Positions 7,892-29,458 of a DNA stretch of 32,875 nucleotides are shown in pieces; the stretch's first letter is position 1; every line of letters begins with the position of its first letter. Source of the DNA: Bacteroidales bacterium (GTDB lineage Bacteria; Bacteroidota; Bacteroidia; Bacteroidales; UBA10428); the NCBI GenBank assembly GCA_016936215.1, contig JAFGPL010000305.1, positions 1 to 32,875 on the forward strand, read 5' to 3'. Under the pieces are notes generated by a model, which was given only the letters and a program-made list of their open reading frames with translations, was not told the DNA's origin and searched no databases. A program made the translations under genes and the position numbers.

Positions 7892-10800
7892 ATGAAGAAA
7901 ATTGTATGTCTAATCGTCTTATTTGTGGCATTAGGGGTGGTAAATACCCTGGCACAGACAAGGAGTATAAGCGGCACGGTTACCAGTGCCGAAGACAACT
8001 CCCCGTTGCCTGGTGTCGCAATTATGGTAAAGGGTACCAATACAGGGTCAACCTCTGATGTTGATGGCGCATATAAGATTGAAGTACCTGCAGGTGCCAC
8101 CATGCTTGAGTTTTCATTTATCGGCATGAAAACTACAGTAGAGGAAATCGGAAACCGCACTGTTATCAACGTGGCTTTAGAACCTGATGTCTACAGTGTG
8201 GATGAAGTGGTCGTGACTGCTCTTGGCATCCCGAAAGAGAAAAAGGCTTTGGGATATGCAGTAGGAGAGGTGAATTCACAGCAAATTCTTGATTCACGAG
8301 AAACAAATGTGATCAACTCTTTGTCGGGATTAGTGGCCGGTGTTCAGGTCAATAACTCAAGCGGTATGGCCGGTAGTTCTGCGCGCATAACCATTAGAGG
8401 TACCACCTCCCTTAATTATGAAAACCAGCCTCTAATTATAGTTGACGGTATCCCTTTTGATAATACCGAGTATAACTTTGACGAGGATGATGTTGATTAT
8501 GCACTGCTATACGGAAATAAAGGAAATACAGGCATAGATATAGATCCGAACCAGATAGAGAACATGACGGTACTGAAAGGTGCAGCAGCTTCTGCTTTAT
8601 ATGGTTCCAGGGCAGCAAATGGTGTTATTCTTATTACAACCAAAGGCAGTTTGAACGGCGGTAAGGCCCAGGGTTTAAAGGTAAATATTTCTTCTCGTTA
8701 TGGATGGGAAAACATTATTAAACCTCCGGTACAAAAAAAATATGGACTTGGTTTTAATGGAGAATACTATGATGGTGAAAATGATAAAACCTATTATATA
8801 TGGGGGCCATTGCTTGATACTATGGATATTCCGACATATGATCAATTTGATGAGTTTTTTGAAACCGGTCAAAATTGGGAAAATTCTTTCAACGTTCAGG
8901 GGGGTGGCGAAAAGGGATCCTATTTTGCATCATACTCAAATCTGGATCAAAAAGGCACTGTTCCGAAAAATACCCTCAATAGGCACAACCTTATGGCAAG
9001 GTTTAGTGCCAGGTTATCAGATCGTCTGAGTATCGAGGCAAAAATGGGGTACATTCGAACTGTTAATGACAGGATAATGGAGGGCAATAACCTCGAATCG
9101 GTTATGTGGACCATCATTAATGCTCCGGTAACATATAATTTCCAGCCTGCTGTGGATGAAAACGGAGTACAGCGACTCCACCGGACACTGAGCCGAAACA
9201 ATCACTTCTGGACGATTGAAAACGTACTGTTAACAAATTCAAGAGACCGGTTTACGCCTAATGTGGGTCTGGATTATAAAATCAATTCATGGCTTAACTT
9301 TACAGGTAAAGTTGGTGTAGATTACTATACCGATTTTACCAATTATCATGAAAACGTAGGTACAATAGGTGCAAATCCTACCGGACGAATTGATCAGACA
9401 ACAAGAACCAACAGAGAGTTTAACTCCGATCTCATGCTTAATTTCAACAAATCAATCGGAACAGATTTTAATATTTCAGCAATGGTTGGACAGAACATTA
9501 ATGACAGGTACTATGATTACCATCGTGTTAATGGTTCTGATCTTATAATCCCCGACTTTTACGATTTATCAAATGCAACAAGTTATTCTCCGTCTGAAGG
9601 TCAGACACAGAAAAGGACAGTAAGCATTTACGGACAGGGTTCTGTTGCCTGGAGAAGTATGCTGTTTCTAAATGTTACTGGTAGAAATGACTGGTCATCC
9701 TCGCTACCCGTAAAGAACAACTCTTATTTTTATCCATCGGTAAGCCTTAGCTATATTTTTACAGAAATGTTTAATATTCCCGACAATATTCTACCTTTTG
9801 GAAAAATCAGGCTCTCATATGCACAAGTAGGGAACGATCCTCCTGCATATGCTACAAAAACCTCTAATATCAGGGCAAATCCTTCTGATGGACAAAGAGG
9901 AAATATTGATTTCCCATTTAGAGGTTATGGGTCTTACATCGAGAGCAATGTTATGGGAAATCCCGATCTCAAACCTGAATTGACTTCTGAGATGGAGATG
10001 GGACTCGACCTTAGATTTTTAAACAACAGGATCGGTATTGATATGGCACTTTATAGCAAGAAAAGTACCAACCAGATATTTCCCGCACCTATTGCTTCAG
10101 AAACCGGATTTTTGCAAAAGGTGATCAATGCCGGGGAAATAACCAACAAAGGTGTAGAACTAATGGTTGATCTAATTCCAGTGAAGTTTCGTGACTTTAC
10201 CTGGAACATTAAAGTGAATTATTCCCGTAACAAAAATGAAGTGGTTAAGCTTACCGAGGGAGTGGAAAGCATAAGGCTTGCCGGTTTTACAAGTCCTGGT
10301 ATTTTCATCCGAGAAAAAACTCCTTATGGGGTAATATGGGGCACTCGTTATGAAAGAAACGAACAGGGACAGGTGCTAATTGATGATGACCCTGAAAGTG
10401 ACCTCTATGGTTTCCCAATAATTGCTGATGATTTGGGGCCTATTGGTATTGTAACCCCTGACTGGCAAGGCGGTATCCGAAACAGTTTTTCTTATAAAGG
10501 AATCACTTTAAGCGCTTTAGTTGATATGCGCAAAGGAGGAGACCTGATGAACTTTGATGAATATTATACCACTTTTTATGGTTCTTCAATACAAACCGAA
10601 AATCGTGATCAACCGGTTATAGCAGAAGGTGTAAATGCATCTGATGGCACAAAGAATGATATTGAGCTCAGTGCTTTTGACTATTATACAATTTTGCCCA
10701 CTCTTGCCGATGAGTTTATGGTTCAAAAAAGCGATTTTATTAAACTAAGGGAAGTTTCCTTTAGTTACCGGATGCCTGCCAAATTCTTTTCGAAAACGCC

Positions 10801-10978
10801 GCTAAAGGAGGTATCTGTTGTATTTACCGGAAGAAACCTCTGGATGAAAACTGATAAGAGTTTCACCGGTTCAGACCCGGAACTCAGTCTATACGGGAGC
10901 AATAACGGGCAGGGATTTCTTAATTACCAGATGCCTGCTTCGAAGAGCTACAGTCTAACCCTGAATGTCGGATTTTAA
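7892..10978 (+). CDS. SusC/RagA-family TonB-dependent outer membrane transporter
   Basis: Signal peptide, carboxypeptidase-like domain (SGTVTSAEDNSPLPGVAIMVKGTNTGSTSDVDGAYKIEVP), SVDEVVVTALG TonB-box-like segment, plug (ITIRGTTSLNYENQPLIIVDGIPFDN, AAASALYGSRAANGVILITTK). Confidence 0.96.
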   Translation: MKKIVCLIVLFVALGVVNTLAQTRSISGTVTSAEDNSPLPGVAIMVKGTNTGSTSDVDGAYKIEVPAGATMLEFSFIGMKTTVEEIGNRTVINVALEPDVYSVDEVVVTALGIPKEKKALGYAVGEVNSQQILDSRETNVINSLSGLVAGVQVNNSSGMAGSSARITIRGTTSLNYENQPLIIVDGIPFDNTEYNFDEDDVDYALLYGNKGNTGIDIDPNQIENMTVLKGAAASALYGSRAANGVILITTKGSLNGGKAQGLKVNISSRYGWENIIKPPVQKKYGLGFNGEYYDGENDKTYYIWGPLLDTMDIPTYDQFDEFFETGQNWENSFNVQGGGEKGSYFASYSNLDQKGTVPKNTLNRHNLMARFSARLSDRLSIEAKMGYIRTVNDRIMEGNNLESVMWTIINAPVTYNFQPAVDENGVQRLHRTLSRNNHFWTIENVLLTNSRDRFTPNVGLDYKINSWLNFTGKVGVDYYTDFTNYHENVGTIGANPTGRIDQTTRTNREFNSDLMLNFNKSIGTDFNISAMVGQNINDRYYDYHRVNGSDLIIPDFYDLSNATSYSPSEGQTQKRTVSIYGQGSVAWRSMLFLNVTGRNDWSSSLPVKNNSYFYPSVSLSYIFTEMFNIPDNILPFGKIRLSYAQVGNDPPAYATKTSNIRANPSDGQRGNIDFPFRGYGSYIESNVMGNPDLKPELTSEMEMGLDLRFLNNRIGIDMALYSKKSTNQIFPAPIASETGFLQKVINAGEITNKGVELMVDLIPVKFRDFTWNIKVNYSRNKNEVVKLTEGVESIRLAGFTSPGIFIREKTPYGVIWGTRYERNEQGQVLIDDDPESDLYGFPIIADDLGPIGIVTPDWQGGIRNSFSYKGITLSALVDMRKGGDLMNFDEYYTTFYGSSIQTENRDQPVIAEGVNASDGTKNDIELSAFDYYTILPTLADEFMVQKSDFIKLREVSFSYRMPAKFFSKTPLKEVSVVFTGRNLWMKTDKSFTGSDPELSLYGSNNGQGFLNYQMPASKSYSLTLNVGF

Positions 10979-10995: not shown

Positions 10996-12432
10996 ATGAA
11001 AAAAATAGTTAAAACATACAGCCTGGTACTATCTTTAATATTTATTCTCAGTGCCTGTGAAAGCTGGCTTGATATCAATACCGATCCAAATTCACCTGCC
11101 GAAGATGCCATGACTGAAAATGTCTACCTGCCGGGTATTGAAGCTGAAGTAGCGTATGAATTAACCGGCGGGTTTCCTGCCAGGTACCCGAACTACTGGA
11201 TGCTGCAGGTAGGCCGTGATGCTGCAGCGCCCGACTTTGCAACATATGATATTGATGAGTCCGATCCTAACAACATGTGGACCTATTCAATATATACATC
11301 ATCACTGAAAAATGCTGTTAAACTGAATAAACTCGCTGAAGATAACGGAAATTTCCATTACGCGGGAATTGCAAAGGTTATTTCGGCTTACATTCTGGCC
11401 ATAACCACCGATTGTTTTGGCGATATACCCTGGATCCAGGCATTTCAGCCCGAAGTTTATCCTTTTCCTGTATTCGACAGCCAGGAAAGTATTTATAATA
11501 CCATTCAGACCTTGCTCGATGATGCAATTGCCAATTTTAATACCTCAGAAGAAGGACAGGAATTAAGACCTGGTGATGAAGATTATATTTATGGAGGAGA
11601 CATTAATCAGTGGACAAAATTTGCATATACGCTAAAAGCAAGGTATGCCATCAGATTAACTTATGCCCCTGGAAAAACAGGGGCAGGACAGGCAGACATT
11701 GCCCTTGCTGCCCTTGCAAATGGATTAAATAATACAAGTGATAATCCAGGTATTGAATTCAGTACTTCATCTGGTGCAGAAGCTCCTTGGTATCAGTGGC
11801 ATATTAAATGGGAAACCATTGCTGTATGGGCTAATGAGTATATGGTTAACCTGATGAACAGTAAAAATGATCCTAGAAGAGCTATATACTTCACGCAGAC
11901 AATAACAGACGATTACGTTGGTCACAGGACAGGAAACATGCTTCCGACAAACAGATATGATAGTGTATCAGAGTTTTCAAATGATATTCTTGCAGCAGAT
12001 GAAACCGTGTTCTGGATTACATACGATGAAGCCAAAATGCTTGAAGCCGAAGCTTATTTATGGAAAAATCAGCCTGCTGAGGCAAAAACATCACTTGATG
12101 ACGCTATCAGAGCTAATATGCAACGCTTAGGCCTCAGCAATGGGGAAATTGATTCCTATATTGCCTCAATTGGGCCTTTGCCTGCTGATTTTGAACAAGC
12201 CCTTAAAATGATTATGGAGGAAAAATACGTATCTAATTTTCTCTCAACCGAGGTATGGAATGACCAGCGTCGCACTGGATATCCGGTGATATCTTCTGCA
12301 GATATTGATAACCCGACATACAGCAATGTGCCTTTAAGGTTTATGTACCCTGCAGATGTTAAACAGAACAATCCTGATAATGAACCCGATGTTAACTGGC
12401 TCACCGATCCTGTATGGTGGGACAATAAATAA
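10996..12432 (+). CDS. SusD/RagB-like outer membrane nutrient-binding lipoprotein
   Basis: Lipobox-like LILSAC then ESWLDINTDPNSPAED; immediately downstream of susC; C-terminal WNDQRRTGYPVI. Confidence 0.93.
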   Translation: MKKIVKTYSLVLSLIFILSACESWLDINTDPNSPAEDAMTENVYLPGIEAEVAYELTGGFPARYPNYWMLQVGRDAAAPDFATYDIDESDPNNMWTYSIYTSSLKNAVKLNKLAEDNGNFHYAGIAKVISAYILAITTDCFGDIPWIQAFQPEVYPFPVFDSQESIYNTIQTLLDDAIANFNTSEEGQELRPGDEDYIYGGDINQWTKFAYTLKARYAIRLTYAPGKTGAGQADIALAALANGLNNTSDNPGIEFSTSSGAEAPWYQWHIKWETIAVWANEYMVNLMNSKNDPRRAIYFTQTITDDYVGHRTGNMLPTNRYDSVSEFSNDILAADETVFWITYDEAKMLEAEAYLWKNQPAEAKTSLDDAIRANMQRLGLSNGEIDSYIASIGPLPADFEQALKMIMEEKYVSNFLSTEVWNDQRRTGYPVISSADIDNPTYSNVPLRFMYPADVKQNNPDNEPDVNWLTDPVWWDNK

Positions 12433-12451: not shown

Positions 12452-12487
12452 CCCTGTGGTTTTAATTCTAAATATAAGACCACAGGG
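12452..12487 (+). terminator. intrinsic terminator-like hairpin after susD
   Basis: Perfect 9-bp stem CCCTGTGGT / ACCACAGGG with an 18-nt loop, followed by TTAATTTT, 20 bp after the susD stop. Confidence 0.65.
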
Positions 12488-12711
12488 TTAATTTTAAAGT
12501 TTGACCTGATTGTTTCTGAATACCTAAGAGAAAAAATGTCCTGAATCGCACATTATATGTTCGTTATCGTACATAACTGATATTTATGAGTATTTAATTA
12601 ATCAAAATTATTAACAGTAAATCAATTGCTTACAATCTTTGGCATAAAACATGATATATGTCATATTTTAAAAGAGATCGCTAAAGGTCCTTTTTCACCC
12701 TAACCAACCAG

Positions 12712-14667
12712 ATGATGGCTAAATATTTGAAAATCTTTTTGGTCATTGTTTTACTTAGCAGCCCGGGTATACCTGCGTTTTCGAATGAAGGTGCAGGGAT
12801 AGACAGCCTTTTATCACTTCTTGAAAATTCTGCCAGGGACACCAACAGGGTGATGCTATATATTGACATTGCCAATGAATACATGAGAAGCAATCCTGAG
12901 GAAGCATTTATTTTCACCCAAAAGGCAATTAACCTGTCAGCCAGGTTACATTTTAAGCGTGGAAAAGCAGAGGGATTGAACATGCTCGGTTCGTATTACT
13001 ACCAGCGGGGTGATTTTGTGGACGCAGCCAAGAGCTTTCAGGCAGCGGCAGATATATTCAGCGAAATAATGGATTCAGAAGGATTAGCCATTTGTTATAA
13101 TAATATCGGGGGTATTAAACTTAAACTTGGTTATTACAAAGATGCTTTAAACTATTATATCAAATCGGCAGAGATTTTTGAAGCGATGGGAGAAACTTAC
13201 GGTGCTGTTACGCTTTACAACAATATTGCTGTCATCTGCCGAAGGCAGGGAGACCTGGATAACGCTTCACGTTATTATCAAAAAGCTTTAGGCCTTAGCA
13301 ATAATCTTGATGATGATGATGAACTCATTTCAGGGATTCTGCATAACATTGGTTCTGTTAAACACGATCAGGGTGAGGATTCCCTTGCACTTGAATATCT
13401 TCAGAAAGCCTATAAGATTAGGTGCAGGAACGGGGATAGTTATGGAATGGCCCTAACAGCCCAAAGCCTGGGAACGGTATATCTCAATACGGGAAAACCT
13501 GAAAATGCTTTCAGGTACCTGCACTTTGCACTTACCAGGTTCAAAGAACTGGGTGATCTTCATGGAACAGCTGATTGCTATAATAAAATTGCTGTTTACC
13601 ACTTCAGGCATAAAAACTTATCAGAATCAAGAAATTACTTAATAAAAAGTTACCAGATAGGAGAAAAGCTTGGTTCATTGCCGGTTCAGCAATTCGCGTT
13701 AGGTTGGCTTGCAAGCCTTGATTCACTCGAAGGAAACCTGGCCGGTGCACTTAAATATTTTAAAGCATACAAGACAATAAGTGACAGCATCCTTACCGAT
13801 GATAAAAGGTTTGAAATTGCTAAAATGAGAATGAATTATGAAAAAGACCGGCTCGAAAGAGAAAAGCAAATCGAGTTGCTTTTAGTCAAAAACTCATTGC
13901 AGGAAAGTACATTAAAGAAGAACAGGTACCTTATTTTGTCCGTTATCATTGGTTTTTTGTTTTGCTTTACTTCGGGTTTAACAATTTTTCAAAGACATCG
14001 TCACAGGGTTCAGAAAAAAATTCTGGAACTGGAGTTGGATAAGCTGAGGCAGCAACTCGATCCGCATTTCTTATTTAACAGTCTTAATTCAATTCAGTCA
14101 TACATTTTTCAGGGAGATAAATCTGCATCAAATGAATACCTGACAAAATTGGTGAAGCTAATGCGTTTGATGCTTAGCAGTGCCAGGGAAAAAACCATTT
14201 CACTTCACGAAGAGATCGAATTTCTTTCTTTTTATCTTGACCTTATGAAATTAAGGTACAAGAATAAGTTTGATTATGAGTTTATTATTGATGAGTGTAT
14301 TGATATCCAAAGTTATAAGATTCCTACACTTATTTTACAGCCCTACATTGAAAATTGTGTTATTCATGGATTAAAGAATAAAGAAGGAAAGGGAAAGATA
14401 CATATTGCCTTTCTAATCGAACATAATCACCTGCATTGCAAAATCGAAGACAATGGCACAGGAAGGGAGATTACCCTGCAAACAGGAAACAGGTCAGATA
14501 TAGCTGAACATTGCGCTTACGGTACAAAAATCAACGAAGACCGTATTAAACTACTTAATTGTTTGTATGGAAAAGGTTTAGGGATAAAGTATTCAGACCT
14601 GACAGACAGAGACAACAAACCGGCAGGAACAAGGGTAGAACTTGATTTGCCAATCATAATGAATTAG
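12712..14667 (+). CDS. TPR-repeat sensor histidine kinase, LytS-type (His_kinase/HATPase)
   Basis: Signal peptide and TPR repeats, one TM (YLILSVIIGFLFCFTSGLTIF), then DPHFLFNSLNSIQSYIFQGD phosphoacceptor region and IPTLILQPYIENCVIHGL N-box. Confidence 0.94.
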   Translation: MMAKYLKIFLVIVLLSSPGIPAFSNEGAGIDSLLSLLENSARDTNRVMLYIDIANEYMRSNPEEAFIFTQKAINLSARLHFKRGKAEGLNMLGSYYYQRGDFVDAAKSFQAAADIFSEIMDSEGLAICYNNIGGIKLKLGYYKDALNYYIKSAEIFEAMGETYGAVTLYNNIAVICRRQGDLDNASRYYQKALGLSNNLDDDDELISGILHNIGSVKHDQGEDSLALEYLQKAYKIRCRNGDSYGMALTAQSLGTVYLNTGKPENAFRYLHFALTRFKELGDLHGTADCYNKIAVYHFRHKNLSESRNYLIKSYQIGEKLGSLPVQQFALGWLASLDSLEGNLAGALKYFKAYKTISDSILTDDKRFEIAKMRMNYEKDRLEREKQIELLLVKNSLQESTLKKNRYLILSVIIGFLFCFTSGLTIFQRHRHRVQKKILELELDKLRQQLDPHFLFNSLNSIQSYIFQGDKSASNEYLTKLVKLMRLMLSSAREKTISLHEEIEFLSFYLDLMKLRYKNKFDYEFIIDECIDIQSYKIPTLILQPYIENCVIHGLKNKEGKGKIHIAFLIEHNHLHCKIEDNGTGREITLQTGNRSDIAEHCAYGTKINEDRIKLLNCLYGKGLGIKYSDLTDRDNKPAGTRVELDLPIIMN

Positions 14668-14692: not shown

Positions 14693-14821
14693 ATGAAAAG
14701 TGATTTCTTAGCAAGAATTGAAAAACTCAGTCATGAAGAGATGGGTAAAATACGTGGTGGAAAAGAAAAACCACATCCCGATGATGATATTTTGATTATA
14801 AGGAAAAAGAAAGTTTTCTGA
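14693..14821 (+). CDS. small double-glycine-leader peptide (42 aa), candidate secreted signal peptide or natural-product precursor
   Basis: ORF read by eye, below the track's length cut-off: MKSDFLARIEKLSHEEMGKIRGGKEKPHPDDDILIIRKKKVF*. LSHEEMGKIRGG resembles Bacteroidota GG-leader consensus. Lies between the kinase stop and the regulator start, same strand. Confidence 0.75.
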   Translation: MKSDFLARIEKLSHEEMGKIRGGKEKPHPDDDILIIRKKKVF

Positions 14822-14876
14822 ACCAGTATGTCCGGATGATTATTAGCAAGTTACAGCCCATGTTTTTAAATTGGCT

Positions 14877-15623
14877 ATGATAAATGTTGTGATAATTGAT
14901 GATGAGCCTGACTCAATCAGTTTTCTGGGATCATTGCTCAGGGAATTTTGCCCGAATGTGAATATTTCAGGAACAGCAGATAACGTGGTTCATGCACTTC
15001 GGGAGATTGAAGACAAAAAGCCTGATCTGGTTTTTCTTGATATTGAATTACAGGACGGAACAGGTTTTGATATTCTGGAAAAATGCCGTTACCGGAATTT
15101 TGATGTAGTTTTCATAACCGCATACAACCAATATGCTATAAAGGCTTTTAAACACAGCGCCATTGATTATATTCTGAAGCCTGCAGATATTAACGAACTT
15201 AAAGAAGCCGTAGTTAAAGTGTCAAGAAGCAGGTCGGAGAAAAGCATTGGCAATTTCAGCATCCTTCTCGATAATTTAAAATCCGAGTCACCAAGAAAAC
15301 TGGCAATACCAACACTTCAGGGATATGAGTATATTATGGTAGACAATATTGTGCGCATTGAGGCAGAACGCAGCTATTGCAATATTTATCTTCTTGATAA
15401 AAGAAAGATCATGGTTTCGCGTTGCCTGAACGATTACCAGCAGATACTTGATGAGCGAAAATTCTTTAGGGCCCATAACTCCCATCTTATAAATCTAAAA
15501 CATGTAAAAATGTACGTTAAACGCGATGGGGGACATGTTGAAATGATTGACGGCTCGATTGTGCCCCTGGCAAGACGCAAAAAAGATTATTTCATGGAAG
15601 CGATGAGCATTTTTATGACCTGA
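14877..15623 (+). CDS. LytTR-family response regulator
   Basis: Receiver (VVIIDDEPDS, LVFLDIELQDGTGFDIL, FITAYNQYAIKAFKHSAIDYILKP) plus LytTR domain (IVRIEAERSYCNIYLLDKRKIMVSRCLNDYQQILDERKFFRAHNSHLINLKHVK). The track's 14871 start is a TTG; ATG at 14877 is more likely. Confidence 0.95.
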   Translation: MINVVIIDDEPDSISFLGSLLREFCPNVNISGTADNVVHALREIEDKKPDLVFLDIELQDGTGFDILEKCRYRNFDVVFITAYNQYAIKAFKHSAIDYILKPADINELKEAVVKVSRSRSEKSIGNFSILLDNLKSESPRKLAIPTLQGYEYIMVDNIVRIEAERSYCNIYLLDKRKIMVSRCLNDYQQILDERKFFRAHNSHLINLKHVKMYVKRDGGHVEMIDGSIVPLARRKKDYFMEAMSIFMT

Positions 15624-18613: not shown

Positions 18614-19099
18614 CTATTCGTTATATTCCTTTATTATGTCTTTTACCATTTCCGGAGACACACGACCATATGTTTTTTCTCCTACCATTACTACGGGTGC
18701 AAGACCGCATGCCCCCACGCATCTCAGGCATCCGATAGAGAATTTGCCGTCGGCTGTGGTTTCTCCAACTTCAATCCCGAGCTCTTTTTTAAATTCCTGG
18801 AGCACGGTTTCGGCGCCTCTTACATAACAAGCAGTACCGGTGCATATGGATATGGGGTATTTGCCTTTGGGTATCATCGAGAAAAAACTGTAAAAAGTAA
18901 CCACCCCATATACTTTGGATAATGGAACATCCATTTCCTGTGACACTACTTCCTGTACTTCGGCAGGAAGGTACCCAAATGTTGACTGCACCTTGTGCAG
19001 TGCATTGATTAACTCACCAGGGTTGTTATTAAAAGATTTGCATATCTCTTTAATCTTATCAACCTGGTTTTTCTTAAGTTCTACTTTTATATTTGACAT
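18614..19099 (-). CDS. hydC: [FeFe]-hydrogenase NuoE-like subunit (2Fe-2S thioredoxin-like)
   Basis: 161 aa; VYGVVTFYSFFSMIPKGKYPISICTGTACYVRGAETVL...SIGCLRCVGACGLAPVVMV, NuoE/HndA family. Confidence 0.93.
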   Translation of the reverse strand: MSNIKVELKKNQVDKIKEICKSFNNNPGELINALHKVQSTFGYLPAEVQEVVSQEMDVPLSKVYGVVTFYSFFSMIPKGKYPISICTGTACYVRGAETVLQEFKKELGIEVGETTADGKFSIGCLRCVGACGLAPVVMVGEKTYGRVSPEMVKDIIKEYNE

Positions 19100-19126
19100 A
19101 TCTCAAGTTTTTCCGTTATTGTATTT

Positions 19127-20902
19127 TCAGATATAAATGATTCTTTTTTTCTTATCAACATAATGAGTATGCAGTAATTTATGGGCCTTATCGCTCATTG
19201 GTTTGCCGAGAAATTCCTCATAAAGTTTGATGATGTATGGGTTTTCATGCGATTTTCTTATCGTTTTTCCTTCATCTTCACGATAAATTGCTTCCATACG
19301 CTTTTTCAGGATTTCGGTTTTGCCGTGGTGTAATGGTTGCCCGCCACCACCGATACAACCGCCCGGGCAGGCCATTATTTCGATAGCATGAAAATTACTT
19401 TCACCTTTCCTGATGCTTTCAAGAAGTTGCCGTGCCTTGCCAAGTCCATGGGCAATACCTATATTGATAGGTGTTCCGCCAAAATCTATGGTAGCCTGCC
19501 TGATGCCTTCCATCCCTCTTAATTCTTTAAAATCAACTTTTTCAAGGCTTTTACCTGTGAAAAGCTCGTAAGCAGTCCGGACAGCAGCTTCGATTACGCC
19601 ACCTGTGGCACCGAAAATAACGCCTGCCCCGGATGATTCACCGAGAGGTGCATCAAAATCATCGTCCTGTAATGAATTGAATGAAATATTTGCTCTTTTA
19701 ATCAAAGAAGCCAATTCACGGGTCGAAATAGAATAGTCTACATCAGGATTTCCGTTTACTTTAAACTCGTCACGCTGGCACTCGTATTTTTTGGCCAGGC
19801 ATGGCATGATCGAAACCACGATCAGGTCTTCCCTTTTTACATTTATTTTTTGTGCAAAATAGGTTTTGGCTATGGCGCCGAACATTTGTTGTGGAGACCT
19901 TGCCGTAGAAGGGATATCGAGCATGTCGGTAAACTGTGATTCGAAAAAGTTGACCCAGCCGGGGCAACAGGAGGTAAGAATCGGCAGTTTAACATTTTTG
20001 TCGCCTTTCAGATGTTTTGAAAGCCTTTCAAGCAATTCGGTGCCTTCTTCCATGATGGTAAGGTCGGCTGCAAAATCGGTGTCGAAAACATATTTGAAAC
20101 CAAGCTGACGCAGTGCCGAAACCATTTTTCCGGTGACGAGGGTTCCGGGTTCAAGGCCGAATTCTTCGCCAAGCGCGGCCCTTACGGCAGGCGCTGTTTG
20201 CACGATCACCGTTTTATTGGGATTGGCCAGGTCGCGTATCAGTTTATTGGTATGGTCAACTTCGGTAAGCGCCGCAGTGGGGCATACTGCAACACACTGC
20301 CCGCAATAGGTACATACAGAGTCTTCAAGGTCCATTTCAAAGGCCGGGGCAACTACCGACATAAATCCCCTGTTCACGGCTGATAATGCCCCTACAGTCT
20401 GGAATTCATTACACATGGTTTCACACCTGCGGCACATGATACATTTATCCATGTTACGAATAATCGAGGGTGAGAAATCCACACGATAGGTTGACATTTC
20501 TGATATTTCCTGGTAGGGGATATCCCTGATGCCAAGTTTGATGGCGATACTCTGAAGTTCGCAATTACCCGATTTCGGACATACAAGGCATTCTTTCGGA
20601 TGGTCTGAAAGGATTAGTTCCATTACAATCCTTCGGGCATTTAAGACCCTGATAGAATGCGTGTTTACAACCATTCCTTCCGTGACTTCTGTCGAGCATG
20701 AGGGGGCAAGGTTTCTGCGGCCTTCCACCTCTACCACGCAAATACGGCAACCACCCGGTTTGTGCTCAATGCCGAGGTCTGCCAGGTCCATATAACAAAG
20801 CACTGGGATATCAATGCCTACTTTTTTGGCAGCTTTGTAAATAGTTGTCCCTTTTTCTACTTCAACTATTTTGTTGTCTATTGTAAGTTTTATCATTTCC
20901 AT
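19127..20902 (-). CDS. hydA: catalytic [FeFe]-hydrogenase subunit with NuoG-like N-terminal Fe-S domains
   Basis: Complete H-cluster signatures: TSCCPGW (L1), MPCLAKKYE (L2), EIMACPGGCIGGGGQP (L3); N-terminal 2Fe-2S, HPKECLVC and 2x4Fe-4S motifs. Confidence 0.97.
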   Translation of the reverse strand: MEMIKLTIDNKIVEVEKGTTIYKAAKKVGIDIPVLCYMDLADLGIEHKPGGCRICVVEVEGRRNLAPSCSTEVTEGMVVNTHSIRVLNARRIVMELILSDHPKECLVCPKSGNCELQSIAIKLGIRDIPYQEISEMSTYRVDFSPSIIRNMDKCIMCRRCETMCNEFQTVGALSAVNRGFMSVVAPAFEMDLEDSVCTYCGQCVAVCPTAALTEVDHTNKLIRDLANPNKTVIVQTAPAVRAALGEEFGLEPGTLVTGKMVSALRQLGFKYVFDTDFAADLTIMEEGTELLERLSKHLKGDKNVKLPILTSCCPGWVNFFESQFTDMLDIPSTARSPQQMFGAIAKTYFAQKINVKREDLIVVSIMPCLAKKYECQRDEFKVNGNPDVDYSISTRELASLIKRANISFNSLQDDDFDAPLGESSGAGVIFGATGGVIEAAVRTAYELFTGKSLEKVDFKELRGMEGIRQATIDFGGTPINIGIAHGLGKARQLLESIRKGESNFHAIEIMACPGGCIGGGGQPLHHGKTEILKKRMEAIYREDEGKTIRKSHENPYIIKLYEEFLGKPMSDKAHKLLHTHYVDKKKRIIYI

Positions 20903-20912
20903 TTTTCCAGAA

Positions 20913-22706
20913 TTAATTGACGATTACTGCATTAAATTTACATCTTTCAAGACACGCGCCACATTTGATACATAGTTTCGGGTCTATTTTGTGTATTTGT
21001 TTACGTTCACCGGTGATTGCACCTACAGGGCAGGCCCTGGCGCATGCTGTGCAGCCTACACAATTTTCGGGGACTATTTCATAGGTCATTAATGCTTTAC
21101 ATACCCCGGCTGGACACTTTTTATCAATGATATGGGCATCGTATTCATGCCTGAAGTGTTCCAAAGTTGATAGCACAGGATTGGGTGAAGCCTGGCCGAG
21201 CCCACATAAAGCAGTGTCTTTGATAACGTAACTCAGGTTTATTAACCTGTCTATATCTTCCGGGGCGCCATTTCCTTTGCATATCCTGTCAAGCAGTTCA
21301 TGCAACCTTTTGTTGCCGATACGGCAGGGGGTGCATTTACCGCACGATTCTTCTACCGAGAATTCAAGGAAGAATTTGGCAAAATCTACCATACAATCGT
21401 CCTCGTCCATAACGATCATACCGCCTGATCCCATCATTGAACCTGCTGCCACAAGGGTTTCGTATTCAATCGGGATATTGAGGTGCTTTTCGGTGAGACA
21501 TCCGCCCGAAGGGCCGCCTGTTTGCACGGCTTTGAATTTTTTACCGTTTTTAATTCCGCCGCCGATTTCAAAAATAACTTCACGCAGCGTGATACCCATC
21601 GGAACCTCAATTAATCCTACGTTATTTATCTTACCTGCCAGCGCGAAAACTTTTGTCCCTTTTGATTTTTCTGTGCCAATGCTGCTGAACCATTCCGCTC
21701 CTTTTGTGAGGATGACCGGAATATTTGCAAAAGTCTCCACGTTATTTACATTGGTGGGTTTTCCGAGGTATCCTGATACAGCCGGGAATGGAGGTTTAAG
21801 TGTTGGTTCTCCACGTCCGCCTTCCATTGAATGGATGAGGGCGGTTTCTTCCCCACATACGAAGGCGCCTGCTCCATACCTTAGTTCTATGTCGAAGCTG
21901 AATTTTGAACCAAGTATGTTATTTCCAAGTAACCCATATTCCCTTGCCTGCTTAATGGCTGTTTTTAACCTTTCGATTGCAAGCGGATACTCTGCCCTGA
22001 TATATACAAGACCTTTATCAGCGCCTATACAATAGCCGCAAATGGCCATTGCTTCAATTACCGTATGCGGATCACCCTCAAGAATTGACCTGTCCATGAA
22101 GGCACCCGGGTCGCCTTCATCGGCATTACATACTACATATTTTTCATTTCCAGGGCTTTTAGCTGCAAGTTCCCATTTAAGACCTGTAGGAAAGCCGGCT
22201 CCCCCGCGTCCGCGCAGGCCGCTGTCTTTAATGATTTTGATGGTATCTGCCGGGCTCAATTCTGTAAGAACCTTACCTAATGCTTCATATCCATCACGGG
22301 ATATATATTCCCCAATATTTTCAGGGTCAATGATACCGCAATTGCGAAGCGCAATACGTACCTGCTTTTTATAAAAACCAATTTCCCTGGTTGAACCTGC
22401 TGTTTTCTTTGCCACAGGGTCGGTATAAAGGAGCCTTTCTACCTTACGGCCTTTAACGATATGCTCGGCAACAATTTCTTTAGCATCTTCAGGTTTTACC
22501 TGTGTATAAAATGTATTGTCGGGAATAATCTTCACGATAGGCCCTTTTTCACAAAATCCAAAGCACCCTGTTCTTACAACCTGTGCAAAATCGCTCAGGC
22601 CTTCATTGCCAATCTCTTTTTTCAGATTTTCATAAATCAATTCGCTTTGGGAGGCTTTACATCCGGTGCCCCCGCAAACTAATAAATGCAGTTTATAATC
22701 AGACAT
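20913..22706 (-). CDS. hydB: NAD(P)H-dependent hydrogenase NuoF-like flavoprotein subunit
   Basis: N-terminal 2Fe-2S (VCGGTGCKASQS...TGCFGFC), GLRGRGGAGFPTGLKWE, NADEGDPGAFMDRSILEGDPH, ESCGKCTPCRIG, C-terminal 2x4Fe-4S. Confidence 0.96.
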   Translation of the reverse strand: MSDYKLHLLVCGGTGCKASQSELIYENLKKEIGNEGLSDFAQVVRTGCFGFCEKGPIVKIIPDNTFYTQVKPEDAKEIVAEHIVKGRKVERLLYTDPVAKKTAGSTREIGFYKKQVRIALRNCGIIDPENIGEYISRDGYEALGKVLTELSPADTIKIIKDSGLRGRGGAGFPTGLKWELAAKSPGNEKYVVCNADEGDPGAFMDRSILEGDPHTVIEAMAICGYCIGADKGLVYIRAEYPLAIERLKTAIKQAREYGLLGNNILGSKFSFDIELRYGAGAFVCGEETALIHSMEGGRGEPTLKPPFPAVSGYLGKPTNVNNVETFANIPVILTKGAEWFSSIGTEKSKGTKVFALAGKINNVGLIEVPMGITLREVIFEIGGGIKNGKKFKAVQTGGPSGGCLTEKHLNIPIEYETLVAAGSMMGSGGMIVMDEDDCMVDFAKFFLEFSVEESCGKCTPCRIGNKRLHELLDRICKGNGAPEDIDRLINLSYVIKDTALCGLGQASPNPVLSTLEHFRHEYDAHIIDKKCPAGVCKALMTYEIVPENCVGCTACARACPVGAITGERKQIHKIDPKLCIKCGACLERCKFNAVIVN

Positions 22707-22721
22707 AACAGTTATTTTGTT

Positions 22722-23120
22722 TTATTTATTGTCAATTGTTTCATAATTAACAGGAATAATTCCATCCACCAGTTCGCCGTTTTTAATATATCTTTCGATT
22801 ATTTCATCGGCTTTTTTCATGTTGACATAGCCAAAGACTACAGGTTCTTTGCCGGGAATGGTCACCTCGATGGTGGGTTCAGCATAGCAATAACCCATGC
22901 AGCCTGTTTGAGTGACTACGGCATCAATGTTTCGTTTTTCAAGCTCGTCAACAATAAAATTCATAACCTCCCGAGACCCGGAGGCAATACAACATGTAGC
23001 CATTGCTACCTTCACCTGCACAAGGTTTTCGGGATGTTCTCCTTTTTCGCGGATACTGGTTTTTGATTTCAGTTCATCGCGGATTTTACGCAAATCGTTC
23101 AGACTTTTTAATTTGGTCAT
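22722..23120 (-). CDS. (2Fe-2S) ferredoxin-domain protein, HndB-like
   Basis: 132 aa; VKVAMATCCIASGSREVM...TQTGCMGYCYAEPTIEVTIPG. Confidence 0.88.
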   Translation of the reverse strand: MTKLKSLNDLRKIRDELKSKTSIREKGEHPENLVQVKVAMATCCIASGSREVMNFIVDELEKRNIDAVVTQTGCMGYCYAEPTIEVTIPGKEPVVFGYVNMKKADEIIERYIKNGELVDGIIPVNYETIDNK

Positions 23121-23164
23121 GGTTATTAAAATTTTAAAATATCCTTTAATATATCCTGTTTTTA

Positions 23165-23710
23165 TTAAGATGCACCAATGTTTTTCAGGTTCTCATCTAT
23201 CATCTCTTTAATAAAGTTAATAATTTTTGGTGTATTAACATTCAATCCTTCAAGTATTTCGGAAATTTCTCTGCTGTCAAATACAAATTCTCTTCCGTCA
23301 ATTTCGTGTTTGTAAACCAGGTGGTACGAATGGCCAGAGCAAAGCAAAGATTTAATCGTTGCTGCCATATTGCCCATTGGCGGGCAATCAATATGACTTT
23401 TTTTAAAAATGGCAGTCACCATGGTACCCGTACCTTTTTCCGAAACTATATTCAAAGAACCTTCACATTGTTCTGCATTCTGCTTTAGGAGTGGAAGCCC
23501 CATTCCGATTTTTCTGGTACTCCTGGTTGAGAAAAACGGATCGGTTACTTTTTCAACCAGTTCTTTGTCAATGCCTTTACCATTGTCCCTGATCTCAATG
23601 GTCAATTTGTCGGTAGCACTGTCTTCGTTTACAGTTATATAGATTTCTGATGCCCCGGCACGAATTGAATTCTGGGTGATATCCAGTATATGTAACGACA
23701 AATCATTCAT
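23165..23710 (-). CDS. stand-alone HATPase (histidine-kinase-like ATPase without a phosphoacceptor domain)
   Basis: HILDITQNSIRAGASEIYI (N-box), IRDNGKGID (G1), GMGLPLLKQNAEQ (G2); no DHp region. Confidence 0.85.
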   Translation of the reverse strand: MNDLSLHILDITQNSIRAGASEIYITVNEDSATDKLTIEIRDNGKGIDKELVEKVTDPFFSTRSTRKIGMGLPLLKQNAEQCEGSLNIVSEKGTGTMVTAIFKKSHIDCPPMGNMAATIKSLLCSGHSYHLVYKHEIDGREFVFDSREISEILEGLNVNTPKIINFIKEMIDENLKNIGAS

Positions 23711-24453
23711 TTTTTTAATGCCATCACTTTACGACCAGCTTCTGCTGCAAAGGCCATTTTTATCTCATCAAAATCATCATTTTCTATATATAGCATGGTA
23801 AAACCGCTTCCTATATCTTCGATACAATGTGCATCAGAGCCCCTTATAACCGTGTATCTGGCAATTTCAGGTGTTTTCATCAGCAAGGCGTTAAAATCAA
23901 TGCTTTTTGAAATTTCAACAGCATCAATTTTTAGGTTGTCGGGAATAAACCCCAGGTTTGCCAATAAACTGTTTGAAGGCCTGTCTATATGGGCCGGCAC
24001 AAATATGCCATTCATCATGCTAACAATCTCTGCGGCTTCACCGAGATTGAGAGAAAGTGCTGATATCAGCAGCCAATCAACCTCGTAAAGTATATTTTCA
24101 TCTCTGTCAACCACCGGCTGGTAGCCGAAAATCTCTTTCCGGTTTGGTATGTCCGGTTTATGTTTTTCAATTATTTGCTGAAAAATATTTGCCGTTTCAA
24201 CTGTTTCAAAGAACGCGAGGCAATGAACCTCTTCTTTTGTGGTGATCTCAACTCCCGGCAGCACTTTTATCCCTGCCTCTTTTCCCAGCTTACACATTAA
24301 TTTACAGTGAAGCGTGGAGTTGTGATCGGTTATTGCCAGTATGTCAATTTTTTCTGCAACTGCCTTTTCTATGATCTTAACCGGTGCCATATCAAGGCTG
24401 GCGCATGGTGAAAGAACGGTGTGAACATGAAAATCAGCTTTGAATGTCCTCAT
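23707..24453 (-). CDS. PHP-domain phosphoesterase-like protein
   Basis: FKADFHVHTVLSPCASLDM, ILAITDHNSTLHC, LPGVEITTKEEVHCLAFF, VIRGSDAHCIEDIG. Confidence 0.92.
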   Translation of the reverse strand: MRTFKADFHVHTVLSPCASLDMAPVKIIEKAVAEKIDILAITDHNSTLHCKLMCKLGKEAGIKVLPGVEITTKEEVHCLAFFETVETANIFQQIIEKHKPDIPNRKEIFGYQPVVDRDENILYEVDWLLISALSLNLGEAAEIVSMMNGIFVPAHIDRPSNSLLANLGFIPDNLKIDAVEISKSIDFNALLMKTPEIARYTVIRGSDAHCIEDIGSGFTMLYIENDDFDEIKMAFAAEAGRKVMALKK

Positions 24454-24787
24454 TTTCTTTCAGCAATTGGTATAACCTGCCTGCTGTTTCAAATGCCGGC
24501 AGGTCTGTTGCCAGGATAACCACACCCTCTTTTTCTGCCTGCGTTACTGTTTCTGTATCAGGACGATGGCCGTTAACCAGCACGATGCCCGATAACTCCT
24601 TAAGCAAGGCAACAGCAAGAATATTTTTGTGCGACTGCATGGTAATCCAGAGGTTTCCTTCTGAAGCATTGCCCATTACATTGCTTAACATATCACTGGT
24701 ATAACCCCAGGTTACCATGTTGTTTTTACCAGTGCTGCCACATACTATTTCAAAGTTCAGCCTGTCAGCAATTTCTGCTATATTCAT
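24434..24787 (-). CDS. DRTGG-domain protein (paralogue 1)
   Basis: 117 aa; MNIAEIADRLNFEIVCGSTG...TWGYTSDMLSNVMGNASEGNLWITMQSHKNILAVALLKELSGIVLVNG; overlaps the PHP start. Confidence 0.8.
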   Translation of the reverse strand: MNIAEIADRLNFEIVCGSTGKNNMVTWGYTSDMLSNVMGNASEGNLWITMQSHKNILAVALLKELSGIVLVNGHRPDTETVTQAEKEGVVILATDLPAFETAGRLYQLLKENEDIQS

Positions 24788-26169
24788 ATATCATCTTTCT
24801 TTAATGCAATATCTGCAAATTTCTTTTTTCCCCATACTTTTTCAACCATATCGAAGCTCTGGTCAGGTTTGATATCTTGGTGAATAAGCATAAGTTTTTG
24901 AATAAAAACACAATCGGTAATCGCTGCCCGTTCCTGCACGATATCTTCAGCCAGGGCTTTGCATCCGGGTGAACCGCAGGCGGCACAGTCAATAGCGGGC
25001 AGGTGGCTGTATAGTATACGTGCACGGGTTATTTTTTTCATGGCTGTATCCATGTTTTCATCCAACGCAAAGGCAGCACGCGGTTTTATCGGTTCCAACC
25101 CGATATTTTCCAGCAGATAGTCCTTGAATGTATTTACTGTGCCAGCGTATGTATTAAGGTTTCTGCTTTCTTTGATGTAATCGTTCGCACGGTTCCTAAG
25201 CCTTTCGGCGCACAGAAACCTGTTGGCAACAGAAAGGATTCCTCCTGCGCACCCCTGGTCACATGCTCTTAGTTCAAGGAAATCAAACACGCCAATCGAA
25301 TCATTTTCGAGGTCTTCAAGAAATTCTGTTACATTTTGTATTCCGTCAATGGCCAGGCTGCGGCCTGTAGCAAAGCCTGTTTCCCCATTGGTCAGGCTCC
25401 ATAGCATCTCGGTATCGCGAAGCTGTTCTTTGTCAGGTACCTGGCACGATTTACGGTCGCTGCGGTTGATGATTGAGAATACCTTGTTGTAAAGGAAATT
25501 CATGTTTATGACCCCGTTAAACGGAGATTGGCTCTCACCTACAGGGCTTTTAACTGCAGCAATTTTTGCTGCACACGGGGTGATATAGAAAACACCGATC
25601 TCATTTTCTGGAACACCCGATTCAACAAGTTTTTTTCGATATGCAATGGCAGCAATATCCAGCGGGGCTTTTAGCAGCATGATGTTTTCTACAAGCGAGG
25701 GAAATTTTACCTGTATAAGCCTTACAACTGCCGGGCAAAAAGAGGAGATAACAGGTTTTAAAGAAGCATGTTCTTTCTGGTATTTTGATATTTCTTCACC
25801 AAGCAGCCTGGCCCCGTGCTCGGCTTCGAATACATGGGTAAAACCCGATTCGAGAATTCCGCTATAAATCTCACGGGTAGGGATATTACGCGGGAACTGG
25901 CCTATAAAAACCGAGGGGACGATGGCCACACGGTATTTGTATTGAAAGATATTATGGAAATCATCCTGTTCTACAATAATCGCGTTCACAGGGCAGGCTT
26001 TCATACATTCACCACAATCCACGCAGCGCTCGGGCATCAGCACAGCTTTACCATTGCGTACCCTTAAGGCTTCGGTGGGGCATACCTGCATGCAATGTAT
26101 ACATCCGATACAAGCCTCCTCAACAATTTTAAGGGCATGATGAAATGTATGTTTTTTTCCTTCTGTCAT
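24784..26169 (-). CDS. degenerate [FeFe]-hydrogenase-like iron-sulfur protein (2x4Fe-4S + Fe-hydrogenase large-subunit-like + C-terminal Fe-S domain)
   Basis: EACIGCIHCMQVCP and ERCVDCGECMKACP; degenerate motifs SSFCPAVV, TPCAAK, ELRACDQGCAGG; C-terminal IDCAACGSPGCKALAEDIV. Likely start MTEGKKHTF at 26169. Confidence 0.87.
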   Translation of the reverse strand: MTEGKKHTFHHALKIVEEACIGCIHCMQVCPTEALRVRNGKAVLMPERCVDCGECMKACPVNAIIVEQDDFHNIFQYKYRVAIVPSVFIGQFPRNIPTREIYSGILESGFTHVFEAEHGARLLGEEISKYQKEHASLKPVISSFCPAVVRLIQVKFPSLVENIMLLKAPLDIAAIAYRKKLVESGVPENEIGVFYITPCAAKIAAVKSPVGESQSPFNGVINMNFLYNKVFSIINRSDRKSCQVPDKEQLRDTEMLWSLTNGETGFATGRSLAIDGIQNVTEFLEDLENDSIGVFDFLELRACDQGCAGGILSVANRFLCAERLRNRANDYIKESRNLNTYAGTVNTFKDYLLENIGLEPIKPRAAFALDENMDTAMKKITRARILYSHLPAIDCAACGSPGCKALAEDIVQERAAITDCVFIQKLMLIHQDIKPDQSFDMVEKVWGKKKFADIALKKDDI

Positions 26170-26582
26170 AATCTGGTAAAACAAGTTATTTCAACCTTGG
26201 TGCCGGTTCCCGGCGTGCTCGTGATTTTCAGTTCGTCTGCATTTTTTTTGATATTAGGAAGCCCCATGCCAGCGCCAAAACCCATTTCACGCACTTTCTC
26301 GTTGGCTGTGGACCATCCTTCAGTCATTGCTTTTTCAATATCTTCAATACCGGGGCCCTCGTCTTTTACTGCAATGAAGATTCTGCCAGTGTCAATATCA
26401 ACGGTCATGGTACCTCTGTAAGCATGTGCCACAACATTTACTTCGGCTTCATACATGGCAACAGCAATACGTTTGATCAATGACGGTTCAAGGTTTAATT
26501 GTCTAAGAATTTTTTTTACCTCACTTGAGGCAGAACCTGCCTTTGTGAAGTCGCCACCTTCTATTTGATATTCAAATATCAT
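26166..26582 (-). CDS. RsbW-like anti-sigma-type serine kinase ATPase
   Basis: MYEAEVNVVAHAYRG (N-box), VKDEGPGIEDIEKAM (G1), GFGAGMGLPNIKKNADEL (G2). Confidence 0.87.
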   Translation of the reverse strand: MIFEYQIEGGDFTKAGSASSEVKKILRQLNLEPSLIKRIAVAMYEAEVNVVAHAYRGTMTVDIDTGRIFIAVKDEGPGIEDIEKAMTEGWSTANEKVREMGFGAGMGLPNIKKNADELKITSTPGTGTKVEITCFTRL

Positions 26583-26594
26583 TCGGTCAACCCG

Positions 26595-26939
26595 TTAAAA
26601 CAACGGTTTTATGCCTGCATGGTGAAGTTGTCCGCAAACATTGAACATTGAAGAGGCAGATTCAATCAATACGATGTTGCTCTCCTCGGCCAGATCAATC
26701 ATTTCTTTGGTGGGTTTTTTGTTTCTTACAAATACTATCCCTGAAATGTCGGCCATTTCGGCTGTGCGTATTGTCTGCATGTTGGCAAGCCCGGTAATAA
26801 GCAGAATATCCGCTGAATCAAGCGTAAGTACGTCACTCATCAGGTCCGAGGCAAATGCGTGATTTACTTCTTTGCCAGAGTGTAAATTCCCGCTTACAAT
26901 TTTTCCGTTGATCAATCTTGCCACTTCACCAATTTTCAT
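26595..26939 (-). CDS. DRTGG-domain protein (paralogue 2), first gene of the hydrogenase operon
   Basis: MKIGEVARLINGKIVSGNLHSGKEVNHAFASDLMSDVLTLDSADILLITGLANMQTIRTAEMADISGIVFVRNKKP; same layout as paralogue 1. Track start 26951; MKIGE start at 26939. Confidence 0.8.
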   Translation of the reverse strand: MKIGEVARLINGKIVSGNLHSGKEVNHAFASDLMSDVLTLDSADILLITGLANMQTIRTAEMADISGIVFVRNKKPTKEMIDLAEESNIVLIESASSMFNVCGQLHHAGIKPLF

Positions 26940-26982
26940 TTTATACAGCATTTTATATCCGTGTTACGGATTAGCTTTTTCT

Positions 26983-27000
26983 TTGTTACAAAAATAACAA
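26983..27000. promoter_or_regulatory. Rex-like operator, site 1 (overlaps a putative -7 box)
   Basis: TTGTTACAAAAATAACAA (TTGTTA-N6-TAACAA); minus strand includes TATTTTTG, matching TAnnTTTG. Confidence 0.65.
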
Positions 27001-27005
27001 TAATT

Positions 27006-27023
27006 TTGTTATTATTATAACAA
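27006..27023. promoter_or_regulatory. Rex-like operator, site 2
   Basis: TTGTTATTATTATAACAA; perfect palindrome extending to TTTTGTTAT-TATT-ATAACAAAA (27004-27025). Confidence 0.7.
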
Positions 27024-27212
27024 AAACTCAATAAACAATTAATCTATAATGTTTCTAAATAACAATATTGATAAGTTCAAGTTACAAAAAATAGTTATAA
27101 ATGCTTAATTAAAAGGTCAATTTATTGATTGATGTTCATCAAATAGTTATACAGGTATTGATGTAACGGGAAAAATGAGTTTTGTATGCCTGGTTAAACC
27201 GAAGATTTTGGT

Positions 27213-28013
27213 CTATTGTTTATTTAACCATTCCAGCCAATTCTCAAGACCGGTCCCTGATCTTAAAGAAATCTCAAAAAATTGAAGATGATGATTGATT
27301 TTTAACGCATTGTTTTTCAGTTCATCAAGGTTAAAATCAAGATGCGGGAGTAAATCTGTTTTATTGATGATACAGACATGAGATGACTGAAACATATACG
27401 GGTATTTCAGAGGCTTATCCTCTCCTTCGGTAACACTAATGACAACAACCCTTGCCGTTTCCCCGAGGTCGAACATGGCCGGACAGACGAGGTTGCCCAC
27501 ATTTTCAATCATCAGAATGGAGTTATCGGGTGGTTGCAACTCTTTGAGGGCTGAATGCACCATAGATGCATCAAGGTGGCAGCCGCTGCCGGTATTTACC
27601 TGAACAACCGGCACCCCTGCAGACTTGATCCTGTCCGCATCACGGGTGGTCTGTTGGTCGCCTTCAATGACTGATATTATTCTTTTTACCTGCCGCGACT
27701 GAACAGTTTTTTCAAGCAGGAGCGTTTTTCCGGCGCCGGGGGAGCTTACAAGATTGAGGGCAACAATATTTTTTGCCTCAAAAAATCCCCTGTTCCTTTC
27801 GGCAAGAAGGTTGTTATGGTAGAGGGCATCTTTTTCTACTTCAATAATTTTTCCTGAATGATGGTGGTGGCTGTGATTTTCTTCGTTACCGTGGTCGTGC
27901 TGATGAGGATGTGTATGCGGGTGCTGGTGGTCATCACCATGATGGGTATGGCCGCCTGATGAGGTGATGATTGTATATCCGCTGTTATTGCTGCATCCGC
28001 ATGTATCACACAT
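27213..28013 (-). CDS. hypB: hydrogenase nickel incorporation GTPase HypB with His-rich N-terminus
   Basis: MCDTCGC N-terminal motif, His-rich stretch, NLVSSPGAGKTLLLEKT P-loop, VIEGDQQTTRDADRI, IINKTDLLPHLDF. Confidence 0.95.
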   Translation of the reverse strand: MCDTCGCSNNSGYTIITSSGGHTHHGDDHQHPHTHPHQHDHGNEENHSHHHHSGKIIEVEKDALYHNNLLAERNRGFFEAKNIVALNLVSSPGAGKTLLLEKTVQSRQVKRIISVIEGDQQTTRDADRIKSAGVPVVQVNTGSGCHLDASMVHSALKELQPPDNSILMIENVGNLVCPAMFDLGETARVVVISVTEGEDKPLKYPYMFQSSHVCIINKTDLLPHLDFNLDELKNNALKINHHLQFFEISLRSGTGLENWLEWLNKQ

Positions 28014-28060
28014 GGTTTTTTGTTTGTTTTGTCAAATTTAATATAATTGTTTCTTTTTCA

Positions 28061-28402
28061 CTAATCAATCTCAATAGACTTTACCCGCATCTCTTTACCT
28101 GAAGTTATCGTTACATTGAACGAGGAGCAGTGAGGGCAGACAGCAATGAGGTTATCGGGGTTAAACTCTTTATTGCAGTCATTACAGATAGCCTTTGCCG
28201 GAATATATATAAAAGTTATTTTTGCGTTTTCAAGCATGGTATTTTTAACGGCTGATTGCATGGCCATTTCAAGTGCTTCAGGGACAATGCCCGATGCTTC
28301 CCCGATTTCGAGTACAATACCGCTTATTTTTTCAGCATGGTGCAACTTCGCAGTTTCTTCGGCTATTTCAACAATATTTACTGCTATTGAAAATTCGTGC
28401 AT
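28061..28402 (-). CDS. hypA: hydrogenase nickel insertion protein HypA
   Basis: MHEFSIAVNIVEIAEETAKLH; zinc motif CNDCNKEF...CPHC. Track ORF extends upstream to 28429; MHEFS start at 28402. Confidence 0.92.
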   Translation of the reverse strand: MHEFSIAVNIVEIAEETAKLHHAEKISGIVLEIGEASGIVPEALEMAMQSAVKNTMLENAKITFIYIPAKAICNDCNKEFNPDNLIAVCPHCSSFNVTITSGKEMRVKSIEID

Positions 28403-28422
28403 AAAACAAGTGTTTTTTGCCA

Positions 28423-29445: not shown

Positions 29446-29458
29446 GTTTTAAAAAAGG

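Follow-up and report, generated by a model that had tools for sequence, protein, structure and literature searches.

In the ComC-ComD-ComE and BlpC-BlpH-BlpR systems of streptococci, the gene of a peptide with a double-glycine (GG) leader is found together with those of a polytopic histidine kinase of the HPK10 type and a LytTR regulator. In Bacteroidales, bacteroidetocins and other GG peptides are associated with PCAT exporters, which carry a C39 peptidase (PMC10352776). TPR domains are the peptide-binding sensors of the RRNPP receptors (Rap, Rgg, PlcR), which are cytoplasmic and recognize a re-imported peptide. Pairs of a TPR-LytS kinase and a LytTR regulator occur in Bacteroidota, e.g., FimS of Porphyromonas. 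To our knowledge, TPR-LytS kinases are numerous in this phylum and their ligands mostly unknown, and peptide pheromones are poorly documented there. No paper on a GG peptide within a TPR-LytS/LytTR operon was found in the open-access literature.

Here we analyzed a 32,875-nucleotide stretch from the genome of an uncultured Bacteroidales lineage (GCA_016936215.1, contig JAFGPL010000305.1), hereafter called the window. As in the ComCDE and BlpC systems, the gene of a GG-leader peptide lies together with a histidine kinase gene and a LytTR regulator gene, and a C39 ABC exporter is encoded in the genome. In contrast to these systems, the kinase is of the LytS type, with a signal peptide, a TPR domain and a single transmembrane (TM) helix, the host is Gram negative, the peptide gene is located between or after the kinase and regulator genes, and the control elements of the operon look sigma54-type. 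The best E values obtained with the ComC and BlpC models among seven members of the peptide family were 0.082 and 0.051, respectively, below significance. Because the peptide models fail to match and the kinase type differs, the system, which would work like the ComCDE/BlpC class, is not a member of it. It differs from the bacteroidetocins by the lack of an adjacent exporter, by its short charged core and by a link to a two-component system that is conserved across genera. As in the RRNPP receptors, a TPR domain is the presumed sensor of the peptide, but here it is predicted to be extracytoplasmic and is joined to a kinase. The kinase and regulator have the same architecture as the other TPR-LytS/LytTR pairs; FimS was the best NCBIfam match, far under the cut-off of that model.

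Results

The peptide ORF is a real gene under purifying selection

The preliminary description, made from the sequence alone, had placed a 42-residue GG-leader ORF between a TPR-LytS kinase and a LytTR regulator, and the locus reads exactly as claimed. The ORF (positions 14,693 to 14,821, plus strand) encodes MKSDFLARIEKLSHEEMGKIRGGKEKPHPDDDILIIRKKKVF, 42 residues followed by a stop codon, and starts 25 bp after the stop of the kinase gene (12,712 to 14,667, plus strand). It ends 55 bp before the ATG of the regulator gene (14,877 to 15,623, plus strand); on the basis of a comparison of homologues, this start was preferred over the TTG at 14,871 given in the mechanical ORF list. The predicted leader comprises residues 1 to 23 and ends in IRGG, and the predicted core, KEKPHPDDDILIIRKKKVF, has 19 residues and is devoid of Cys, Ser and Thr, as had been noted.

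When the 209-bp gap between the kinase and regulator genes was shuffled with dinucleotide composition preserved, none of 20,000 shuffles contained a GG-leader ORF by either the strict or the loose motif. The peptide genes of the window genome (G000) and its congener (G001) differ at 9, 14 and 23 first, second and third codon positions, respectively, over 42 codons, and their flanks align poorly. The pN/pS ratio was 0.298/0.66, corresponding to a dN/dS of about 0.24, similar in the leader and the core; this value is rough, the gene being short and the synonymous sites close to saturation. Because of the shuffling result and the low dN/dS, a chance ORF was ruled out, and the peptide ORF is a real gene under purifying selection.

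The peptide had no match in Pfam. In a GG-leader profile search of its own assembly, which is fragmented and in which a contig ends within a CHAT locus, it was the only match. A class I lanthipeptide was also considered and rejected: the leader scored 12.8 bits with NF038153 against a cut-off of 22, and the core lacks Ser, Thr and Cys. No LanBC gene was found among the window genes tested.

The peptide is a lineage-restricted accessory of the kinase-regulator pair

Homologues were searched in 60 relatives, followed by a profile search and inspection of the orthologous regulator loci. The peptide showed 57% identity in the single congener and 53% in a family member of a different genus. Orthologous regulator loci, set off by a clear score gap, were present in 12 genomes, and a peptide with a GG or AG leader was found at 7 of them, in seven species. 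The peptide gene lies between the kinase and the regulator genes in G000, G001 and G003 and directly 3' of the regulator gene, at about 13 to 44 bp, in G006, G015, G011 and G017. Among the homologues, the leader pattern LxxxEMxxIRGG is retained, not the GG alone. The preliminary description had named conservation at orthologous loci as a check, and with the ORF and the leader motif kept at 7 of 12 loci its claim was not refuted. The cores of the seven loci are KEKPHPDDDILIIRKKKVF, AEKPRVEEDIIIINRKRRFF, GEEPTVEDDVIIIIKKKGGYCGFHSM, KQQPEKPKKPKTPPELISQPYNGEDY, RGLAIPEDIIIQPGPR, LGKSDKPKSPGEVIILNLWDLMV and ISFGNKPNPPGPEDEPILDI. They range from 16 to 26 residues and vary between genera, and most have in common an acidic pair with aliphatic residues after it. 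The core RGLAIPEDIIIQPGPR follows RAG, which in G015 stands in place of RGG.

In the genus g5 (G016, G022, G012, G007 and G020), the kinase-regulator pair is kept but no such peptide was found at any of the five loci; SusC and SusD genes lie upstream of these pairs wherever the contig reaches. In a tree of the regulators, the 12 loci formed one clade (support, 96/93) with three subclades, namely, those with the peptide between the two genes, those with the peptide after them and those with none. The tree does not fix the branching order of the subclades and is compatible with a loss in g5 as well as with two gains.

A leader HMM was also run over 80 LytTR loci from public genomes. It matched only at three members of the clade, which are in the profile by construction, so that the informative part of the scan is the absence elsewhere; the 77 other loci gave no match, nor did a reversed-sequence control. 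A GG peptide as a general feature of TPR-LytS/LytTR pairs was therefore ruled out. No other kinase-regulator locus with a recognizable homologue turned up in 394 genomes from the order and 398 from the phylum, and beyond the family there were only leader-like matches at other loci. Because it is missing from the g5 loci and from the 77 other LytTR loci, the peptide is a lineage-restricted accessory of the kinase-regulator pair.

The kinase sensor is compatible with peptide binding

The kinase consists of a signal peptide, a predicted exported TPR superhelix (residues 27 to 360, approximately), a TM helix (about residues 405 to 427) and a His_kinase domain (PF06580); the regulator combines Response_reg and LytTR domains. 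In AlphaFold models of 11 sequences, kinase residues 27 to 360 were predicted as a regular TPR superhelix with a pLDDT of about 90. The best solved structures found for the sensor with Foldseek were TPR domains that bind peptides, LGN with Inscuteable being one example; Rap-pLS20 with Phr* was also among the matches. TPR folds are common and matches to them generic; the modeled fold of the sensor is therefore compatible with peptide binding, which speaks to compatibility and not to function.

Faster evolution of the sensor in the peptide-bearing clades was not seen: a table of identities gave no visibly faster divergence of the domain there than in the peptide-less clade. With seven loci, no covariation of core and sensor could be demonstrated.

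A C39 exporter is encoded elsewhere in the genome

As previously described, the window contains no C39 gene. A search of the rest of the genome, proposed at the same time, found one C39 peptidase domain (C47:808-1167) with intact DCGPSC and NHF motifs, fused to an ABC membrane domain and truncated where the contig ends; it is unlinked to the peptide locus. The congener has a full C39-ABC gene (729 amino acids) followed by HlyD, and HlyD also adjoins the exporter in G006. In the genus g4, the exporter operon carries a GG peptide of its own with a similar leader.

Matches to C39 were found in 18 of 23 genomes of the family. A C39-ABC exporter was present in 6 of 7 peptide-bearing and 2 of 5 peptide-less genomes, a difference that is not significant at n = 12 (one-sided exact P of about 0.15, calculated by hand). 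No canonical C39-ABC exporter was found in the peptide-bearing G003. Its C39-like membrane protein has a single domain, with QPGIIC in place of the expected catalytic DCGxxC. This stand-alone protein (L133:1168-2034, on G003:C131) has similar matches on G001:C2 and G002:C1.

Control elements upstream of the kinase gene look sigma54-type

Cross-locus motif comparison revealed two elements upstream of the kinase gene, both on the plus strand. The tandem 21-bp repeat TGTCCTGAATCGCACA-N5-TGTTCGTTATCGTACA (12,537 to 12,573) comprises candidate activator sites, and TGGCATAAAACATGAT (12,640 to 12,655) is a sigma54-like -24/-12 element. The repeat follows a tandem TGTnC-N5-CGnACA pattern with a period of 20 to 22 bp, which was found upstream of the kinase gene at 9 of 10 loci. 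At all nine, it scored highest within the locus, also in G015 and G011, which lay outside the weight matrix; the motif had been chosen after the loci had been seen. At the same nine loci, a TGGYAY-N5-WTG element lies 3' of the tandem repeat, and that of G012, TGGTATAATATTTGCA, comes near the full sigma54 -24/-12 consensus. RpoN is encoded in the window genome.

Of the 23 family genomes, 19 have a few copies each of the tandem pattern, which is rare when read backwards. At several other sites, a sigma54-like element follows at a nearly constant distance, 56 to 68 bp downstream, and the genes after these sites are, by sequence appearance, MacB/FtsX-looking ABC-transporter genes and genes of small exported proteins. 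The repeats occur in genomes with and without the LytTR regulator of this locus. From these patterns, the tandem repeats are probably upstream activator sites, transcription of the kinase operon probably depends on a sigma54 activator, and the repeats with their sigma54-like promoters probably make up the regulon of one such activator in the family. If so, the activator would tie the peptide system into a larger regulon.

In ComC/BlpC systems, the regulator switches on its own operon by way of direct repeats, and autoregulation by the LytTR regulator through the tandem 21-bp repeats was first suspected here. This idea was weakened by the presence of the repeats before ABC-transporter and other genes, although binding of the LytTR regulator to them is conceivable. 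The parallel with ComC-ComD-ComE drawn in the preliminary description did not extend to autoinduction, which is not supported because the elements look sigma54-type and are common to ABC-transporter genes.

SusCD genes are upstream neighbors

Upstream of the kinase gene lie a SusC/RagA TonB-dependent transporter gene (7,892 to 10,978) and a SusD/RagB-like lipoprotein gene (10,996 to 12,432; SusD-like_2), both on the plus strand. A hairpin, CCCTGTGG/CCACAGGG, read from the sequence 3' of SusD (12,452 to 12,487, plus strand), is likely a terminator that divides SusCD from the kinase operon. For SusC of the window, G001 and G003, BT_2264 was by far the nearest solved structure (466, 392 and 504 bits, respectively).

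SusC proteins 34 to 40% identical to that of the window were found in G001 and G003, which have the peptide, and in G022 and G012, which do not. Another SusC type is shared by the peptide-bearing G006, G015 and G011 and the peptide-less G007 and G020; SusC of G015 and G011 is 59 to 71% identical to that of G007 and G020. To judge from this distribution, SusCD looks like a separate neighbor.

Discussion

We propose that the ORF is part of the kinase-regulator operon and codes for the precursor of a small peptide that is secreted. An ABC exporter with a C39 peptidase, whose gene lies elsewhere in the genome, would remove the leader after Gly-Gly and export the short, acidic-hydrophobic-basic core, which would then bind the neighboring kinase at its exported TPR superhelix and tune phosphorylation of the LytTR regulator, by activation or inhibition. 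We give an even chance to this sequence of export, cleavage after GG and sensing by the adjacent kinase. For it speak the placement of the peptide at 7 of the 12 loci of one clade, the constrained leader and core, the C39 exporter and the fold of the TPR sensor; against it, the absence of the peptide from g5, the weak association with the exporter, the lack of a canonical C39-ABC exporter in G003, the sensor divergence, which is not visibly faster where the peptide is present, and the generic nature of TPR matches. The peptide-pheromone or feedback system suggested in the preliminary description has thus been borne out in part: a conserved GG peptide is co-operonic with the kinase and regulator in a genome that encodes C39, but the absence of the peptide from g5 and of a canonical exporter from G003 does not fit.

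The peptide could instead be an output of the two-component system, a small secreted bacteriocin- or microcin-like effector carried in the operon that controls it. The GG leaders and C39 exporters of the bacteroidetocins (PMC10352776) and the differences among cores from genus to genus favor such an effector. However, no exporter, immunity or modification gene was recognized in the window or the operon, the cores have just 16 to 26 residues, and three species have the gene within the kinase-regulator operon, which makes an effector unlikely. Chemical modification of the core by an enzyme encoded elsewhere, giving a modified natural product such as one with a graspetide-like Lys-Asp/Glu lactam, could be read from three cores in which an Asp/Glu cluster precedes one of Lys/Arg. 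The g4 cores do not retain this pattern, and no modification enzyme was found among the window genes tested; we regard this as very improbable.

A peptide that is never exported but stays in the cytoplasm as a small regulator, acting there on the kinase or the LytTR protein, with GG as a relic, would account for RAG in G015 and for the lack of a canonical C39-ABC exporter in G003. It is distinctly unlikely, as the entire leader pattern is kept beyond GG and the leader has a dN/dS about as low as that of the core; C39 peptidases accept GA sites as well, which counts further against it. Re-import of the exported peptide to the periplasm by SusCD, which would then serve a pheromone loop as a dedicated component, was attractive because SusC at the three loci with the peptide in between is closest to BT_2264, and the Bt2263/64 complex has been solved with a peptide (PMC7782687). 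Such a dedicated loop is disfavored because SusCD type and peptide presence are cross-classified, the SusCD types being swapped irrespective of the peptide, and we consider it improbable.

If the core is sensed by the kinase as proposed, a conserved and probably exported peptide in the same operon would be a concrete, testable ligand for a TPR-LytS kinase. Other GG peptides recovered with the profile adjoin TPR proteins at all six loci tested, and such recurrence near exported TPR proteins suggests a wider signaling theme. It is possible, albeit doubtful, that exported TPR domains of Bacteroidota act as receptors for C39-exported GG-leader peptides, in the LytS kinase here and in TPR-CHAT proteins elsewhere. 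If true, this would be a Gram-negative principle of peptide signaling, with a TPR sensor outside the cytoplasm reading a peptide exported by a C39 transporter.

The family has a second recurrent GG-peptide locus (L018:5043-10627 on G001:C22; L180:5824-14633 in G006; L183, L185, L186 and L105). Its genes encode an exported TPR-CHAT protein with a C-terminal TM helix, a GG-leader peptide, a TM-TPR protein and a HisKA kinase, to which genus g4 adds a C39-ABC exporter and HlyD; Pfam evidence for CHAT was obtained in L018 and L180 only. GG peptides beside TPR proteins were also seen in other Bacteroidales families (L193, L196, L200, L204, L208 and L211). On G015:C411, two paralogous GG-leader peptides (L177:6919-7059 and 8249-8389, minus strand), with the cores NDDPEPPIIRVKL and NDDPETPIIRIKP, lie 2 to 3 kb from a non-TPR LytS/LytTR pair, and a longer ORF (8780-9157, plus strand) has a similar ending, GPVIRVKP. 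In the window itself, positions 18,614 to 32,499 form an [FeFe]-hydrogenase region with NuoE-, NuoF- and HydA-like genes and genes of two further Fe-hydrogenase-domain proteins, together with those of PHP, DRTGG, SpoIIE and HATPase proteins and HypA, HypB-like and AIRS genes.
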